From: a virus
DNA length: 30,418 nt
Direction: 5' to 3' (one strand)
Virus record (IMG/VR): IMGVR_UViG_3300032560_000087
Location: 1-30,418 of that record
This document shows, piece after piece, positions 3,259-19,740 of this stretch; position 1 is the stretch's first letter, and the number at the start of each line of letters is the position of its first letter. The notes below the pieces were generated by a model that saw only the letters and a list, made by a program, of their open reading frames with translations, did no database searches and was not told where the DNA came from. A program made the position numbers and the translations under genes.

Positions 3259-3729
3259 TTAAAGAATTATAAACTCAGCTAAGTCCTTGTGACATAAGTA
3301 TTTTTCTTCCCAAGTGTTTTTTTCCTCTTCATAAATGTTGCGAATGACCCACTTTTTTTTCGTTTCGCCCTTGATGATGGCGGCGTGGGTGAACTCATTA
3401 TTTACGATGAAGTACGCAAACGCATTGTACCGATCTGCTGATGCGACATTCGCGACGATAATCTCATTATATATGAAGCTGTCACGGTCATAAAAAAGCA
3501 TATTACGACCTTTGACTTCAATGATGTGCTTCCCGTTAACAATTATATCCCCGATGTCTTTGTACTCATCTGCAAAATCAGGATCAGGGGCCAATTGCAT
3601 GGCGGGTATTTCAACAGAGCAGTTCTTTTCCCTGTTCAAATATTCCGCAACTTTAAACACCGCCGATCTAGAATTGATAAAACGTTTCGTGAAAACGCTC
3701 CAACTTCTGTTTACTGGTTTCTCATCCAT
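3259..3729 (-). CDS. PD-(D/E)XK nuclease-like protein
   Basis: 156 residues. The core DIGDIIVNGKHIIEVKGRNM gives D61, then E71-V-K73, the arrangement of PD-(D/E)XK nucleases, with a possible upstream acid at E29 in the first helix. The rest is a beta-rich C-terminal half (AFAYFIVNN, AAIIKGETKKKWVIRNIY). It may be a resolvase-like or VRR-like nuclease helping process recombination intermediates made by the adjacent exonuclease/ERF pair. The specific subfamily is not recognised. The ATG overlaps the end of the upstream gene. Confidence 0.6.
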   Translation of the reverse strand: MDEKPVNRSWSVFTKRFINSRSAVFKVAEYLNREKNCSVEIPAMQLAPDPDFADEYKDIGDIIVNGKHIIEVKGRNMLFYDRDSFIYNEIIVANVASADRYNAFAYFIVNNEFTHAAIIKGETKKKWVIRNIYEEEKNTWEEKYLCHKDLAEFIIL

Positions 3730-7183: not shown

Positions 7184-7236
7184 TTTTTTCTCCTCATTGC
7201 CAAGTATCGATGTTTCATTTGAACCCCCGTTGTTCG

Positions 7237-7276
7237 ATATTGACACTATGGCTTGTATCGAATAAGTTGTCAATAT
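7237..7276. promoter_or_regulatory. Overlapping divergent promoters with inverted-repeat operator
   Basis: Leftward: TTGACA (7273-7268), 17-base spacer, CATAGT (7250-7245). Rightward: TTGACA (7240-7245), 17-base spacer, TAAGTT (7263-7268, weak). Each -35 box therefore sits on the other promoter's -10 region, so polymerase can occupy only one. The -35 boxes are embedded in a perfect inverted repeat ATATTGACA (7237-7245) / TGTCAATAT (7268-7276), a natural operator for the Cro-like protein encoded at 7298. Confidence 0.6.
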
Positions 7277-7297
7277 GGTTGTAAACGGAAAATTGAA

Positions 7298-8052: not shown

Positions 8053-8343
8053 ATGTCTCAAAAAGCTATAGGTTGGGCTTTAAGTAAAACAGGAATTTCG
8101 TGGCAAGCGAAATTTGTTTTAGTTTTGCTTGCTCATCATCACGATGAAAGCACGGGTTTTTGCAACCCGACAAAAAGTATTTTAGCAGAACAATCTGGTT
8201 TCCCTCAACAAATGATTGGGAGATACACAAAACAGCTAAAAGACATTGGTTTTATTAAAAAAAGACCTCGTTATGATGAAAATGATGCTCAAATAGCAAA
8301 TCATTATTGGCTCCAAATGGAAAATGATGGAGTTGCAATATGA
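8053..8343 (+). CDS. Winged-helix DNA-binding protein, replication-associated
   Basis: 96 residues from ATG 8053, with AGGTGG 7 bases upstream, preferred over the GTG at 8041. The chain forms one winged helix-turn-helix (HTH_36-like): SWQAKFVLVLLAHHHDESTG, then CNPTKSILAEQSGFPQQMIG and YTKQLKDIGFIKKRP. It resembles the N-terminal domain of the next protein, so the pair is probably a tandem duplication. Such proteins act in phage replication initiation or helicase loading. The DNA is AT-rich compared with its neighbours, suggesting a separate origin. Confidence 0.75.
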   Translation: MSQKAIGWALSKTGISWQAKFVLVLLAHHHDESTGFCNPTKSILAEQSGFPQQMIGRYTKQLKDIGFIKKRPRYDENDAQIANHYWLQMENDGVAI

Positions 8344-9317
8344 GTGGATTTGCAAAAATCTGGGCTTGGGAACAAAAAAACCTTACCCCAACAGAAAAAT
8401 GTGTGTTGATGGGGCTGGCTGATTTTCACACGGAAAATGGCGGATGTTATCCTTCTTTAAAAAGAATAGCTGAAAAAGTTAATGTTAGCGTTGATACGGT
8501 AAGCCGTTCGATTGATAATTTGATTGAAAAAGGTCTTGTCAAAAAGGAGCATAGGAGGAAAGAAAATAATGGTCATACTAGCAACTTTTACGATTTGCTA
8601 TTTACCTCCATTTTACCTCCTATACCCTTACCGCAAATTGCGGATACCCCTTCCCGCAATTTAAGTAACGAACAACAGTATATAGAACAAGATACAGTTC
8701 CTTCGGAACTGCACGATCCCCTAATTGCCTTTTCGTCGAACTACGAAGAGCCGCCAGTGAGTGAGCAAGCGGAGTTCTGGGCGGAGGCTAAGGTTATCTT
8801 CGAAGGTTGGCGGATACCGGACAAACGCGCTAATCCATTGATTGGAAAGCTGCTGAAGATGTCTGGCGGCAATTATTCAGAGGTTAGGAGATTGCTGGAG
8901 GAGGCAATCGCCAATGACGTTACCGACCCCGTTCCGTGGTTGATAGCGGCTGTTAGCGGTAAAAATAAACGGGGCAAGGAGGCAAAGAAAAAGCAGATTG
9001 CAGATGCATTTGCAGAACTGGAGGCAGCAAGTGAACGAAGGAAAGCTGAATGGCGGGAGCAATACGGGACGGAGTACGGCGTTTACCCTGACGCCGGAGA
9101 AAGCGGTGGAAAGCATAATGAATTGCTACAGCCTGAACCACCTACCGAATCCAAGCCTGTTCATTCAGAACGCAGCGAAAGCGTTGTCAAAGTATCCGCC
9201 AAACGTGTTGCACAGATTGTGCGACCCAACCGTAGGGATACTAACCAAGGCCAAATTCGCCCCATCCATAGCGGAACTGGTGGCGGAGGCGGAGAAACTA
9301 ACGAAGCGTGGCAGTAA
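8340..9317 (+). CDS. Phage replication initiation protein (HTH_36, O-like)
   Basis: 325 residues. Residues 1-85 form a winged helix (LTPTEKCVLMGLADFHTENG, SLKRIAEKVNVSVDTVSRSI, EKGLVKKEHRR), as in lambda-O-like origin-binding proteins. A Pro/Ser linker and a helical domain (about 140-205, WAEAKVIFEGWRIPDKRANP…VPWLIAAV) follow. From about residue 230 the frame overlaps the gene at 9031 for 287 bases, and its tail becomes low-complexity (HSGTGGGGGETNEAWQ), as expected where another frame dominates. Base composition shifts from AT-rich to richer in GC at about 8.7 kb, so this gene looks like a mosaic of two sources. ATGA overlap with the upstream gene. Confidence 0.8.
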   Translation: MSGFAKIWAWEQKNLTPTEKCVLMGLADFHTENGGCYPSLKRIAEKVNVSVDTVSRSIDNLIEKGLVKKEHRRKENNGHTSNFYDLLFTSILPPIPLPQIADTPSRNLSNEQQYIEQDTVPSELHDPLIAFSSNYEEPPVSEQAEFWAEAKVIFEGWRIPDKRANPLIGKLLKMSGGNYSEVRRLLEEAIANDVTDPVPWLIAAVSGKNKRGKEAKKKQIADAFAELEAASERRKAEWREQYGTEYGVYPDAGESGGKHNELLQPEPPTESKPVHSERSESVVKVSAKRVAQIVRPNRRDTNQGQIRPIHSGTGGGGGETNEAWQ

Positions 9318-15604: not shown

Positions 15605-16435
15605 ATGAATATGATCAATCAATCGGCTTTTAATCGCGCAATCAATCTTCCAATGGCGACTTTTGCGGAAGCGCCACATGTTTCTAGAACAGAACGTTTT
15701 ATTCATATCCCTACGCATGAAATAGTAGAACGTATGGAAAGCGCTGGATTCGTTCCGGTACGGGCAAGCGCCCGCAGCGTACGCAATCCCGATAAGCAAG
15801 GTTTCCAGAAACACGTGATCCGCTTTCGTCGTCATGATCAAACTGATTTGCGAGTATTAGGCGAGAACGTGCCTGAAATTGCTTTGTTAAACGCTCATGA
15901 CGGAACGAGTCCAGCAATTTTGTGGCCGGCCGTGTTTCGCCTTGTTTGTCTTAATGGAATGGTTGTCGCGGATAGTGATTTGGGAAAGATATCAATCGCG
16001 CATAGGGGAAATAATGTAGCGGATAAGATTATCGAAGGGAGCTACACGGTTATAGAACGGGCAGATCGGGCAATTGAGGCAATAGGCTCATGGTCGCAGA
16101 TCCAATTGACGGCTAGTCAGTCGCTGGATTTAGCGGATAGGGCGCTATCGCTTAAATATATCCCGAAGGAAGGGGAAAAGCGGGCGGATATCTGCCCTAT
16201 TGAGCCGGTAGCATTATTGCGCCCACGCCGTTACGCTGATACGGGCAACGATTTGTGGAAAGTATTTAACCGCGTGCAGGAAAACTTAATAAAAGGTGGT
16301 CAGTCCGGTTATATCCGCTCGGCTGAAAGGGGAATGTTAATCCGCTCAACGCGGGCGGTCCGATCAGCTGAAAAGGATATTACGCTTAACGCGGCGCTTT
16401 GGGGCTTGGCAAAAGAATATGCAGACGCGGCTTAA
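15605..16435 (+). CDS. DUF932 family phage/plasmid protein
   Basis: 276 residues with the DUF932 arrangement: an N-terminal YIPT-like IPTHEIVERMESAGFVPV, the HVIRFRR core, a central PEIALLNAHDGTSPAILWPA followed by FRLVCLNGMVVAD, and RAIEAIGSW. It ends with a helical region containing a W-VFNRVQENLIKGG motif. The family is common on phages and plasmids (LF_82-like), and its function is unproven. It stands as a single-gene unit with its own promoter region and terminator, divergent from GP88. Confidence 0.85.
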   Translation: MNMINQSAFNRAINLPMATFAEAPHVSRTERFIHIPTHEIVERMESAGFVPVRASARSVRNPDKQGFQKHVIRFRRHDQTDLRVLGENVPEIALLNAHDGTSPAILWPAVFRLVCLNGMVVADSDLGKISIAHRGNNVADKIIEGSYTVIERADRAIEAIGSWSQIQLTASQSLDLADRALSLKYIPKEGEKRADICPIEPVALLRPRRYADTGNDLWKVFNRVQENLIKGGQSGYIRSAERGMLIRSTRAVRSAEKDITLNAALWGLAKEYADAA

Positions 16436-16459: not shown

Positions 16460-16484
16460 AAGGGGGTGAAAGCCCCCTTTTTTT
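16460..16484 (+). terminator. Intrinsic terminator after DUF932
   Basis: AAGGGGG pairs with CCCCCTT around a TGAAAG loop, followed by a run of T. Classic rho-independent form, 25 bases after the stop. Confidence 0.9.
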
Positions 16485-16485
16485 A

Positions 16486-16561: not shown

Positions 16562-16843
16562 ATGACAATTGCTGAAATCATGACGGTTTTGACGGATGAA
16601 TTAAACGCAACTAAAGCCGCCAATGAAAAGCTAGCTGCTAGAATTGAAACGCTGGAAAGAATGGCGGATTATCGGGCGGGATATACGCAAAGCTTAAAAA
16701 GCCGCGCAGATGATACGGATGAAACCTTAGTTACAGTCGCTTGCAGATTGGCGGATTTAACAGAAAAGGTTAAGGGGCTTGAAGCCGAGTTATCAATTCA
16801 GGCTTACAGCAATCAATCGCTAGCGGAAGCCTTAGAAGGATAG
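16562..16843 (+). CDS. Coiled-coil hypothetical protein
   Basis: 93 residues, MTIAEIMTVLTDELNATKAA, NEKLAARIETLERMADYRAG and LADLTEKVKGLEAELSIQAY. Regular heptads over most of the length predict a coiled coil. ATG 16562 follows ACGGGGGTTGAT. It has its own promoter and lies next to the repeat-rich noncoding region. It could bind partners at the putative origin, but this is a guess. Confidence 0.65.
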   Translation: MTIAEIMTVLTDELNATKAANEKLAARIETLERMADYRAGYTQSLKSRADDTDETLVTVACRLADLTEKVKGLEAELSIQAYSNQSLAEALEG

Positions 16844-16933
16844 GATTAGAACGTTGGAAAGCGGCGGCTATTCAAAAGCCGCATAAAGGGGCCGCAATAG
16901 CCTAGCTATTACATATAAAGACAAGACAGAAAC

Positions 16934-16965
16934 AAAGGGGGGGGGCTTTCGGGCTTCCCCTTTTT
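16934..16965 (+). terminator. Probable terminator after 16562 gene
   Basis: AAGGGG (16935-16940) pairs with CCCCTT (16957-16962) around a G-rich loop with TTTCGGGC, followed by TTTTT. The G9 tract makes several registers possible. Confidence 0.55.
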
Positions 16966-16975
16966 CATTGCGCAA

Positions 16976-17046
16976 GAATGCCAGGCGGATGAATGCCAGG
17001 CGGATGATAGCGAGGCAATGCGGATTATGGGGAAATATGGGGAAAT
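16976..17046. repeat. Two tandem duplications (15 bp and 10 bp)
   Basis: GAATGCCAGGCGGAT occurs twice without gap (16976-17005) and ATGGGGAAAT occurs twice (17027-17046). They look like recent slippage or recombination products in the noncoding region. Confidence 0.9.
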
Positions 17047-17097
17047 ATACGGTTACAAGCCCCTCTTTTCTTCCAAGGGGGCGGGGGCGAGCGTAAA

Positions 17098-17236
17098 AAT
17101 ACAAACGTATCTCCGCGCCTAAAGATAAAAAATTATCCATAGCGCGAAGGATACAAACGTATCACTAGGGGCAGATACAAAAGTATCACTAGCTAATGGA
17201 TACAAACGTATCCTTAGGAATGGATACAAACGTATC
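17098..17236. repeat. Iteron array, GATAC-N4-GTATC
   Basis: Five copies of a dyad with arms GATAC and GTATC around AAAC: 17098-17111 (first base A), 17150-17163, 17174-17187 (AAAA core variant, GATACAAAAGTATC), 17199-17212 and 17223-17236. The last four are spaced 24, 25 and 24 bases. Most copies are followed by a CACTAGG or CCTTAGG block, so the full unit is a direct repeat of about 24 bases containing a palindrome. The first is 52 bases before the second. Confidence 0.9.
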
Positions 17237-17462
17237 ACTAGGCGCTGCCATGCTACGTAAGCATTGGGGATAGCAGGAGACATCGTATAGGGTGCTATGC
17301 GGCCACGGTAGGGGCATGGGGATGGTAGTGGGCAGGGGGGGGCCTAATAGGGCGCGGAAAGATAGGCTCGGAAGGAGAGACCCCCACCCCCCCCTTTTTT
17401 GCCTTCCCCCCATCCGGAAAGGGACCCCCCATACCCCCACACAAAATCAAAATTTGACTAAG

Positions 17463-17527
17463 AATAAAAACGTATCCATACCCCAACAAAAAAATAAACC
17501 CATGACTAAGAATACAAACGTACAATC
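17463..17527. repeat. Degenerate iteron copies
   Basis: AATAAAAACGTATC (17463-17476) and AATACAAACGTACA (17511-17524) keep one half of the iteron dyad, each preceded by GACTAAG. The second runs into GTACAATC (17520-17527), the half-site of the neighbouring inverted repeat. Confidence 0.65.
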
Positions 17528-17567
17528 ATCATCTACCCCACCCCCTTTTTGGGACCCCCCTATACCT

Positions 17568-17619
17568 AGGTACAATCCGGATGGCGGTGATTGTACCTAA
17601 CTGGAACTTTGGTACAATC
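17568..17619. repeat. GGTACAATC inverted repeat with extra half-site
   Basis: AGGTACAATC (17568-17577) and GATTGTACCT (17589-17598) form a perfect 10-bp inverted repeat with an 11-base spacer. A third half-site GGTACAATC lies at 17611-17619. Sites of this type are usual for a dimeric regulator. Confidence 0.85.
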
Positions 17620-17625
17620 GACAGC

Positions 17626-17656
17626 AAAAAGCCGCCAGAGTTTCCCCTGACGGCTT
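17626..17656 (-). terminator. Leftward terminator downstream of tRNA-Pro
   Basis: AAGCCG-C-CAG pairs with CTG-A-CGGCTT; on the minus strand the stem is followed by TTTTT. It would end transcription of the minus-strand tRNA and the genes behind it. Confidence 0.6.
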
Positions 17657-17809
17657 GATAGTCTCTCCGGACGTTTGGTACGGGCTATGAATTGCCTATG
17701 GGGCGTTTCATTGTCTTAAACCATGCCCCCGTACAGCATGGTAGCATTGTGTTTAACAAAACGGACAAGCCGCAAGCCAAGCCAGAACACAAACCAGTCA
17801 GGGCTAATA

Positions 17810-17886
<77 letters not shown>

Positions 17887-19230: not shown

Positions 19231-19740
19231 ATGAAAGCGATCAAGAACAAAAACCGCGTCGTCCCGACTGAAATAACCGAAACAAATCCTAAGGGGGCGG
19301 GGCCAAAACGAGGTCGAAAAAGAAAGATTCCTGATGACGATATGGTGCGCCGCACCGTCATGGGCCTCGCTAAACGGGGCAATACAATAGACGAGATCGC
19401 AGACATTGTCGGAGTATCCCGTGCGTGGCTTACGCGGGAGTATGGCCATGAAATTAAAAACGGGCGGCAGATCGCAGACGCTCTTGTTGTTGAAAACCTT
19501 TACCAGCAAGCCCTTAAAGACACTCCGTCATCTATTAATGCGGGTATTTACCTGACCCGCGCCCGTATGGGATGGAAAGATAAACCAGATACGCAAGAAT
19601 TTGCCCGCCCAAGTGTTGTTTTCAACTTTGGCGACCTATCTTATGAAGAACGCATTCACCTTATGAACCGCGTAAAGACCAAAATTGGCGGCCCACAAAT
19701 CATTGAAGGTGAAATTTATGAAGATGAAACCGACGAGTAG
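19231..19740 (+). CDS. terS: Terminase small subunit-like protein
   Basis: 169 residues. A basic N-terminus (GAGPKRGRKRKIPDDDMVRR) leads to a helix-turn-helix (KRGNTIDEIADIVGVSRAWL), then a helical oligomerization region (YLTRARMGWKDKPDTQEF) and an acidic tail (IEGEIYEDETDE). It lies directly before the large terminase, overlapping it by 23 bases, the usual position of the DNA-recognition subunit. The ribosome site CAAAGGAGCC is strong. Identity rests on position and the HTH rather than a specific family. Confidence 0.8.
   Translation: MKAIKNKNRVVPTEITETNPKGAGPKRGRKRKIPDDDMVRRTVMGLAKRGNTIDEIADIVGVSRAWLTREYGHEIKNGRQIADALVVENLYQQALKDTPSSINAGIYLTRARMGWKDKPDTQEFARPSVVFNFGDLSYEERIHLMNRVKTKIGGPQIIEGEIYEDETDE

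Follow-up and report, generated by a model that had tools for sequence, protein, structure and literature searches.

A palindromic repeat array upstream of the terminase genes as part of a putative protein-docking locus in a phage family

P1 pac, SPP1 pac, and lambda cosB are terminase small-subunit sites, and mycobacteriophage L5 stoperators are multiple phage-specific operator sites that lie in gaps and are dispersed through the genome. The locus described here, known from sequence alone, is similar to the former in that clusters of a short recognition element are located at or near terS, in some of these systems flanking the cleavage region, and to the latter in having multiple sites in a gap. 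With the lambda O-type origins, which consist of in-gene iterons, it shares repeats spaced by about 23 to 25 bp, dyad cores, and an HTH_36/O-like initiator. The initiator gp38 of the Bacillus phage SPP1 binds both an in-gene site, oriL, and an intergenic site, oriR, about 13 kb apart (PMC6316719). The resemblance to oriL and oriR comprises direct repeats near an AT-rich stretch, a position among the longest intergenic gaps, bracketing transcription signals, and a distance of kilobases from an initiator gene itself containing repeats.

The window, i.e., the whole stretch of 30,418 nucleotides that was analyzed, is a 30.4-kb virus record (IMGVR_UViG_3300032560_000087). Replication and recombination genes occupy its left part, and a terminase-portal-capsid operon its right part. 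Its toolkit is SPP1-like and includes a YqaJ-type exonuclease and an ERF-type recombinase, both identified by sequence reading, as well as a Holliday junction resolvase. A GcrA homologue in the window suggests an alphaproteobacterial host. Terminase identity to named phages is at most about 47%, the closest being Roseobacter phages CRP-901 and CRP-902 (about 45%; the CRP-901 stretch examined covers terS and late genes), and a prophage search found no relative of the terminase in bacterial genome contigs. The O-like replication initiator (HTH_36) is encoded at 8340..9317 (+). Converging transcription units enclose the locus, which lies a short distance upstream of the terminase genes and is flanked on the left by the gene for a DUF932 protein (15605..16435, +) and a small coiled-coil ORF (16562..16843, +) that varies among relatives; the terminase small-subunit gene terS (HTH; 19231..19740, +) is located to the right, at a distance of about 2 kb from the array. 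The gene-free surroundings of 966 bp reported in the first-pass annotation measure exactly that, from the end of the small ORF at 16843 to tRNA-Pro at 17810 (gap, 16844-17809). The ORFs within the gap are short, overlap C-runs, and show no protein conservation by eye.

The first-pass annotation described four GATAC-N4-GTATC sites spaced by 24, 25, and 24 bases, and exact copies of this dyad (GATACNNNNGTATC) are indeed present at 17150, 17174, 17199, and 17223, against 0.01 expected per window in shuffles. The fifth site that it placed 52 bases upstream of the exact series was also recovered (AATACAAACGTATC at 17098, one mismatch), and a sixth, degenerate unit that it had missed (GATAAAAAATTATC at 17124) is located halfway between 17098 and 17150. 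The full series thus consists of six plus-strand units at spacings of 26, 26, 24, 25, and 24: unit 1, AATACAAACGTATC (17098..17111); unit 2, GATAAAAAATTATC (17124..17137), which reads GATACAAAATTATC in the relative L005/L086; unit 3, GATACAAACGTATC (17150..17163); unit 4, GATACAAAAGTATC (17174..17187), which reads GATACAAACGTATC in L005; and units 5 and 6, both GATACAAACGTATC (17199..17212 and 17223..17236). Two outlying plus-strand units, ACTAAG-AATAAAAACGTATC (unit 7, 17463..17476) and ACTAAG-AATACAAACGTACA (unit 8, 17511..17524), share ACTAAG-AATA[C/A]AAACGTA, also written ACTAAGAATA[C/A]AAACGTA. A position weight matrix built from the units ranks these eight above every other site of the window, with scores of 14.3 to 21.4 against 12.0 for the best of the others. 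The direct-repeat tails are present as ACTAGG, ACTAGC, or CTTAGG, and the tandem duplications mentioned for the gap also exist (GAATGCCAGGCGGAT and TATGGGGAAA). The AT-rich tracts hold locally, in the array (38% GC) and at 17440-17530 (30% GC), but not for the gap as a whole (49% GC). The 17440-17530 stretch lies about 200 bp from the array, behind a C-rich block.

Two C-rich blocks, recognized by eye, enclose the outlying units. Block 1 (ACCCCCACCCCCCCCTTTTTT ... AAAGGGACCCCCC; 17378..17439) recurs in relatives, its minus strand being G-rich, and block 2 (CACCCCCTTTTTGGGACCCCCC; 17537..17561) has the family form CACCCC-W5-GGNWCCCCC. To the right follows an optional dyad cassette, GGTACAATC .. 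GATTGTACC .. GGTACAATC (17567..17619), which was identified in L006, L090, L014, L029, L145, and L035 and is absent from L005, L021, and L034; its three GGTACAATC/GATTGTACC elements are at promoter-like spacing. Terminator signals, found partly by scan and partly by eye, flank the locus on both sides. On the right, a terminator hairpin with a CCGCCAGAGTTTCCCCTGACGG core (17629..17656, -) closes minus-strand transcription and is kept in 15 viral contigs. On the left, there is a terminator on the DUF932 side (16460..16485, +) and, by eye, a likely terminator of the small plus-strand ORF that the scanner did not list (G-run, loop, and CCCCTTTTT; 16937..16968, +). In addition, a sigma70-like promoter, TTGCAT-N18-TATAGT, is located directly upstream of terS, and the array is therefore not needed as a late promoter.

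When 2.9 million viral contigs were scanned for the pattern, corresponding to the search for relatives proposed in the first-pass annotation, one further contig, L005, was found to contain the array, and a different phage, L163, to contain the core motif. L005 and contig L162 are from one sample and have an exact 77-bp overlap, and we therefore treat them as pieces of one phage. L005 is identical to the window at 95 of 97 positions in 17147-17243, whereas the gap outside 17098-17243 is identical at 626 of 825 positions (76%); none of 20,000 permutations, which ignore local clustering of differences, matched this contrast. The L005 counterparts of degenerate unit 2 and variant unit 4 are nearer the consensus than those of the window, and of the outlying units L005 has only unit 8, whereas L006, which covers the right half, has both. 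Since the array is better conserved than the rest of the gap, it appears to have been kept by selection or to have been recently exchanged.

Relatives gathered through the terminase, DUF932, and the CCGCCAGAGTTTCCCCTGACGG hairpin include about 15 phages with an equivalent locus between DUF932 and terS in which the repeat sequences differ (L014, L021, L034, L090, L096, L028, and more distant relatives); they are few, many of the contigs are fragmentary, and their C-rich blocks, like some of the operator overlaps, were recognized by eye. The regular dyad array, which the first-pass annotation read as a site of cooperative protein binding, is retained in one relative, and repeat arrays occur at this locus in about 15, which supports that part of its interpretation. 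In the family, DUF932 and the small ORF are followed by the repeat array, then by one or two single sites enclosed by two C-rich blocks, the second of the form CACCCC-W5-GGNWCCCCC, then, as a rule, by the hairpin, and finally by minus-strand genes and terS. The array words include AATTACTAAAA in L014, TGCTAATCAGTGA in L021, and GGGACTA palindromes in L044. Wherever a contig of a relative has both, the locus precedes terS by 0.1 to 2.8 kb, always in the same orientation, and the initiator is farther off. The half-site CASTRNTTNKCW is confined to the locus in 12 relatives, with 25 copies in 11.8 kb of locus and 11 copies, which is chance level, in 272 kb elsewhere; because it was picked from these same loci, the P value is inflated, and weight should be given only to the 52-fold enrichment over the remainder of the genomes. 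Some family sites are 12-4-12 dyads (L031, L034, and L035; 9 to 10 of 12 matches). The window units have the outer CTA and inner ATAC elements in common with the family site and only a weak outer dyad (5 to 8 of 12), and it is plausible that they descended from it. In L014, L038/L146, and L060, GTTCN7GTTC sites of the alphaproteobacterial LexA type are found right before C-rich block 1. The clusters are at L014:3395-3474, L038:1030-1073, and L060:7179-7266 and 3481-3575, the boxes in L060 thus occupying two places and being partly in 11-bp phase. The ends of about 12 contigs also cluster in the locus, at differing bases in the poly-C region, a pattern for which assembly breaks at poly-C would account as well as packaging termini would.

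The reading that we favor, at a probability of roughly 0.4, is that the locus is insulated and serves as a docking site for protein in a late DNA transaction, i.e., the start of packaging or a replication switch. The array would be the version used by one lineage of a cis-acting locus common to the phage family. A dimeric DNA-binding protein, of phage or host origin, would bind cooperatively to the six dyads of the cluster as well as to the two sites enclosed by the C-rich blocks and, once bound, would build a nucleoprotein complex that serves the late transaction rather than gene regulation. We infer the binding, its cooperativity, and the late role. We give pac-like initiation of packaging a slight preference over a second origin or a replication switch because the locus is always 0.1 to 2.8 kb upstream of terS and an initiator-bound origin is apparently elsewhere. 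However, the TerS recognition helix does not covary with the array here, which distinguishes the locus from P1 pac, SPP1 pac, and lambda cosB.

Candidate readers of the array were sought among the neighboring proteins. The first-pass annotation had named the winged-helix proteins encoded at 8053 and 8340 and the Cro-like protein as candidate binders, none of which agrees with the comparison of relatives. The L162/L005 phage has the array of the window, but the N-terminal winged helix of its initiator is unrelated to that of 8340, and the phage lacks 8053, an extra HTH_36 gene of the window; the C-terminal part of the initiator is 96% identical between these two close phages. This winged-helix swap concerns 8053-9317 (+) in the window and L162:9998-10975. 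In this pair the repeat sequence does not covary with the DNA-binding domain of the initiator, which was rejected as the reader, and the comparison also speaks against 8053. Cro was rejected because it has its own dyads, TTGACA..TGTCAA, at the cro promoter in six of the six phages compared; the conserved promoter dyad, TTGACA...TTGTCAA, is at 7230-7290 in the window and at the same place in L162, L155, L158, L156, and L157. TerS is disfavored because its recognition helix, SRAWLTREYG, is identical in the window and L014, the arrays of which differ. DUF932 genes of other phages were inspected and had no such array, and the DUF932 protein was also set aside. Its AlphaFold model is confident (pLDDT, 87; pTM, 0.84) and had no match in the PDB with an E value below 0.05. 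The reader may be a phage protein encoded outside the window or a host protein. An HTH_3 (XRE-type) gene, absent from the window, adjoins the locus in the array-sharing relative (L005:7516-7944, +).

The sites could instead be operators or a silencer, by which a regulator of the phage or its host (in some relatives LexA) would control transcripts that start in the gap or cross it; we regard this as possible but doubtful. Some of the dyads of L090 and L096 lie upstream of the small ORF and overlap a -35-like TTGACA hexamer, in L034 a dyad overlaps TTGACA-N16-TATATT (all by eye), and the LexA-type arrays at the locus in three relatives, with a second place in L060, point in the same direction. 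In the window, however, the array is followed on both strands by a terminator before any gene start, promoter matches are at chance level, the sites overlap no promoter, GTTCN7GTTC is absent, and GATACNNNNGTATC is not a LexA box; across the genomes the family half-site is not above chance outside the locus. No CI/S24 repressor was found: the integrase and S24 repressor models had no match in 12 related records, several of them fragments, whereas the controls matched, and the single HTH_3 match in the related records is the accessory gene on the contig of L005. The repressor-type multi-operator silencer of the first-pass annotation found no support in these searches, and the sites differ from L5 stoperators in not being dispersed through the genome and in the repressor gene not being found, although a repressor of another family in the genome part beyond the window is possible. 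A partition site, also raised in that annotation, would be the centromere of a phage with a plasmid lifestyle and is extremely improbable. Regular palindrome arrays are typical of some centromeres, but neither ParB_N nor ParA (AAA_31), the two partition models searched, matched in the 12 related records, some of them near-complete at 59 kb, whereas control genomes matched. Given that integrase, ParA, ParB, and S24 repressor were all without matches, both a lysogeny silencer and a partition site are less likely. That each phage uses its array as a decoy to titrate a host regulator, which would differ from phage to phage, is very improbable: the LexA-type boxes, the switching of motifs between phages while the locus stays, and the occurrence of GATACNNNNGTATC pairs as common operator-like sites in unrelated bacteria would suit this idea, but there are only six to eight sites, and the constant geometry of the family half-site suggests a single family of binders. 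A host origin of the motif was rejected, as paired GATACNNNNGTATC in 85,000 genomes led to 75 unrelated places, from unrelated phyla and with varied centers, and to no host regulator.

Iterons bound by the O-like initiator are an unlikely explanation, whether as the main origin or as a late second origin or fork barrier like SPP1 oriR, although the array does consist of regularly spaced direct repeats. In its period (24 to 25 bp) and its 5-4-5 palindromes it is similar to the in-gene iterons (23 to 24 bp) of related initiators, the nearby AT-rich stretch at 17440-17530 might serve as an unwinding element, the SPP1 precedent (PMC6316719) is joined by an SPP1-like toolkit, and GATACAAAAGTATC repeats four times at 23 bp inside the HTH initiator gene of the unrelated phage L163. 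On the other hand, the phage with the same array, L162/L005, has a different initiator winged helix and different in-gene iterons (GGGGAGGGTGAAA at 23 bp). In-gene iteron-like repeats of about 23 to 24 bp occur at the junction of the winged helix and the C-terminal part in L162 (L162:10274-10309), L153, L151, and L152, and the initiators of L060, L044, and L056 also contain in-gene repeats (L044 and L056 by eye), which in L060 and L044 differ from the array motifs. Since related initiator genes carry their own iterons, a lambda O-type origin is likelier to be inside the initiator gene; the array is about 8.8 kb from that gene in the window, in which no clear in-gene iterons were found. The SPP1 oriR precedent fits the position of the array but not its mismatch with the in-gene iterons: SPP1 has one initiator for both sites, whereas here the array has no counterpart among the in-gene iterons of relatives and is retained when the winged helix of the initiator has been exchanged. 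An initiator-bound origin at the array, one of the readings first suggested, is thus disfavored, although the array may be a second late origin. The GC skew proposed as a check changes with gene orientation and gave no independent origin signal. Finally, neutral or selfish tandem repeats would agree with the fast sequence turnover between relatives and the short tandem duplications nearby, but the array is better conserved than its surroundings, the units of the relative are closer to the consensus, and repeats are at the same place family-wide, which makes this explanation improbable.

Returning to the docking locus for a late DNA transaction, a more far-reaching proposal is that a lytic-looking family keeps a dedicated cis locus upstream of terS, composed of a C-rich block, a single dyad, a C-rich block, and an array, in which the repeat alphabet turns over fast and independently of the initiator, Cro, and TerS. 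Phage nucleoprotein loci would then include a new class, with a putative reader of its own; we regard this proposal as rather unlikely. If the locus controls packaging or a replication switch, the about 15 phages would provide aligned, diversified sites for finding the reader, and such sites could change in sequence while the neighboring replication and packaging proteins stay similar. A dyad array near winged-helix genes is not automatically an origin: here the array could be dissociated from the initiator by comparing two phages.

Some further elements were observed. The HTH initiator gene of L163 contains GATAC-N4-GTA[T/C]C four times, at a strict 23-bp spacing and with G-runs between the units (L163:6107-6189). 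GATAC-N4-GTATC arrays with a 22-bp period were detected in many contigs of the same Bacteroidales genomes and look like a dispersed repeat family; these are one Prevotellaceae genome (L174, L178, L188, L198, L201, L208, L209, L216, L227, and L230) and Bacteroides sp. 519 (L193, L212, L215, L217, and L219).

On the minus strand, the region at 17660-17809, between tRNA-Pro and the terminator hairpin, is conserved in six phages and may encode an undescribed structured RNA. It had no match in Rfam, in which only the tRNA was above the threshold. The predicted helices are TTGTGTT/AACACAA and a covarying hairpin, CCATGC/GCATGG and variants, in which five pairs are changed on both sides and 99.2% of cells are paired, the structure having been drawn on the same sequences. 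The loop GTACGGG can pair with a downstream CCCGTAC, suggesting a possible pseudoknot.
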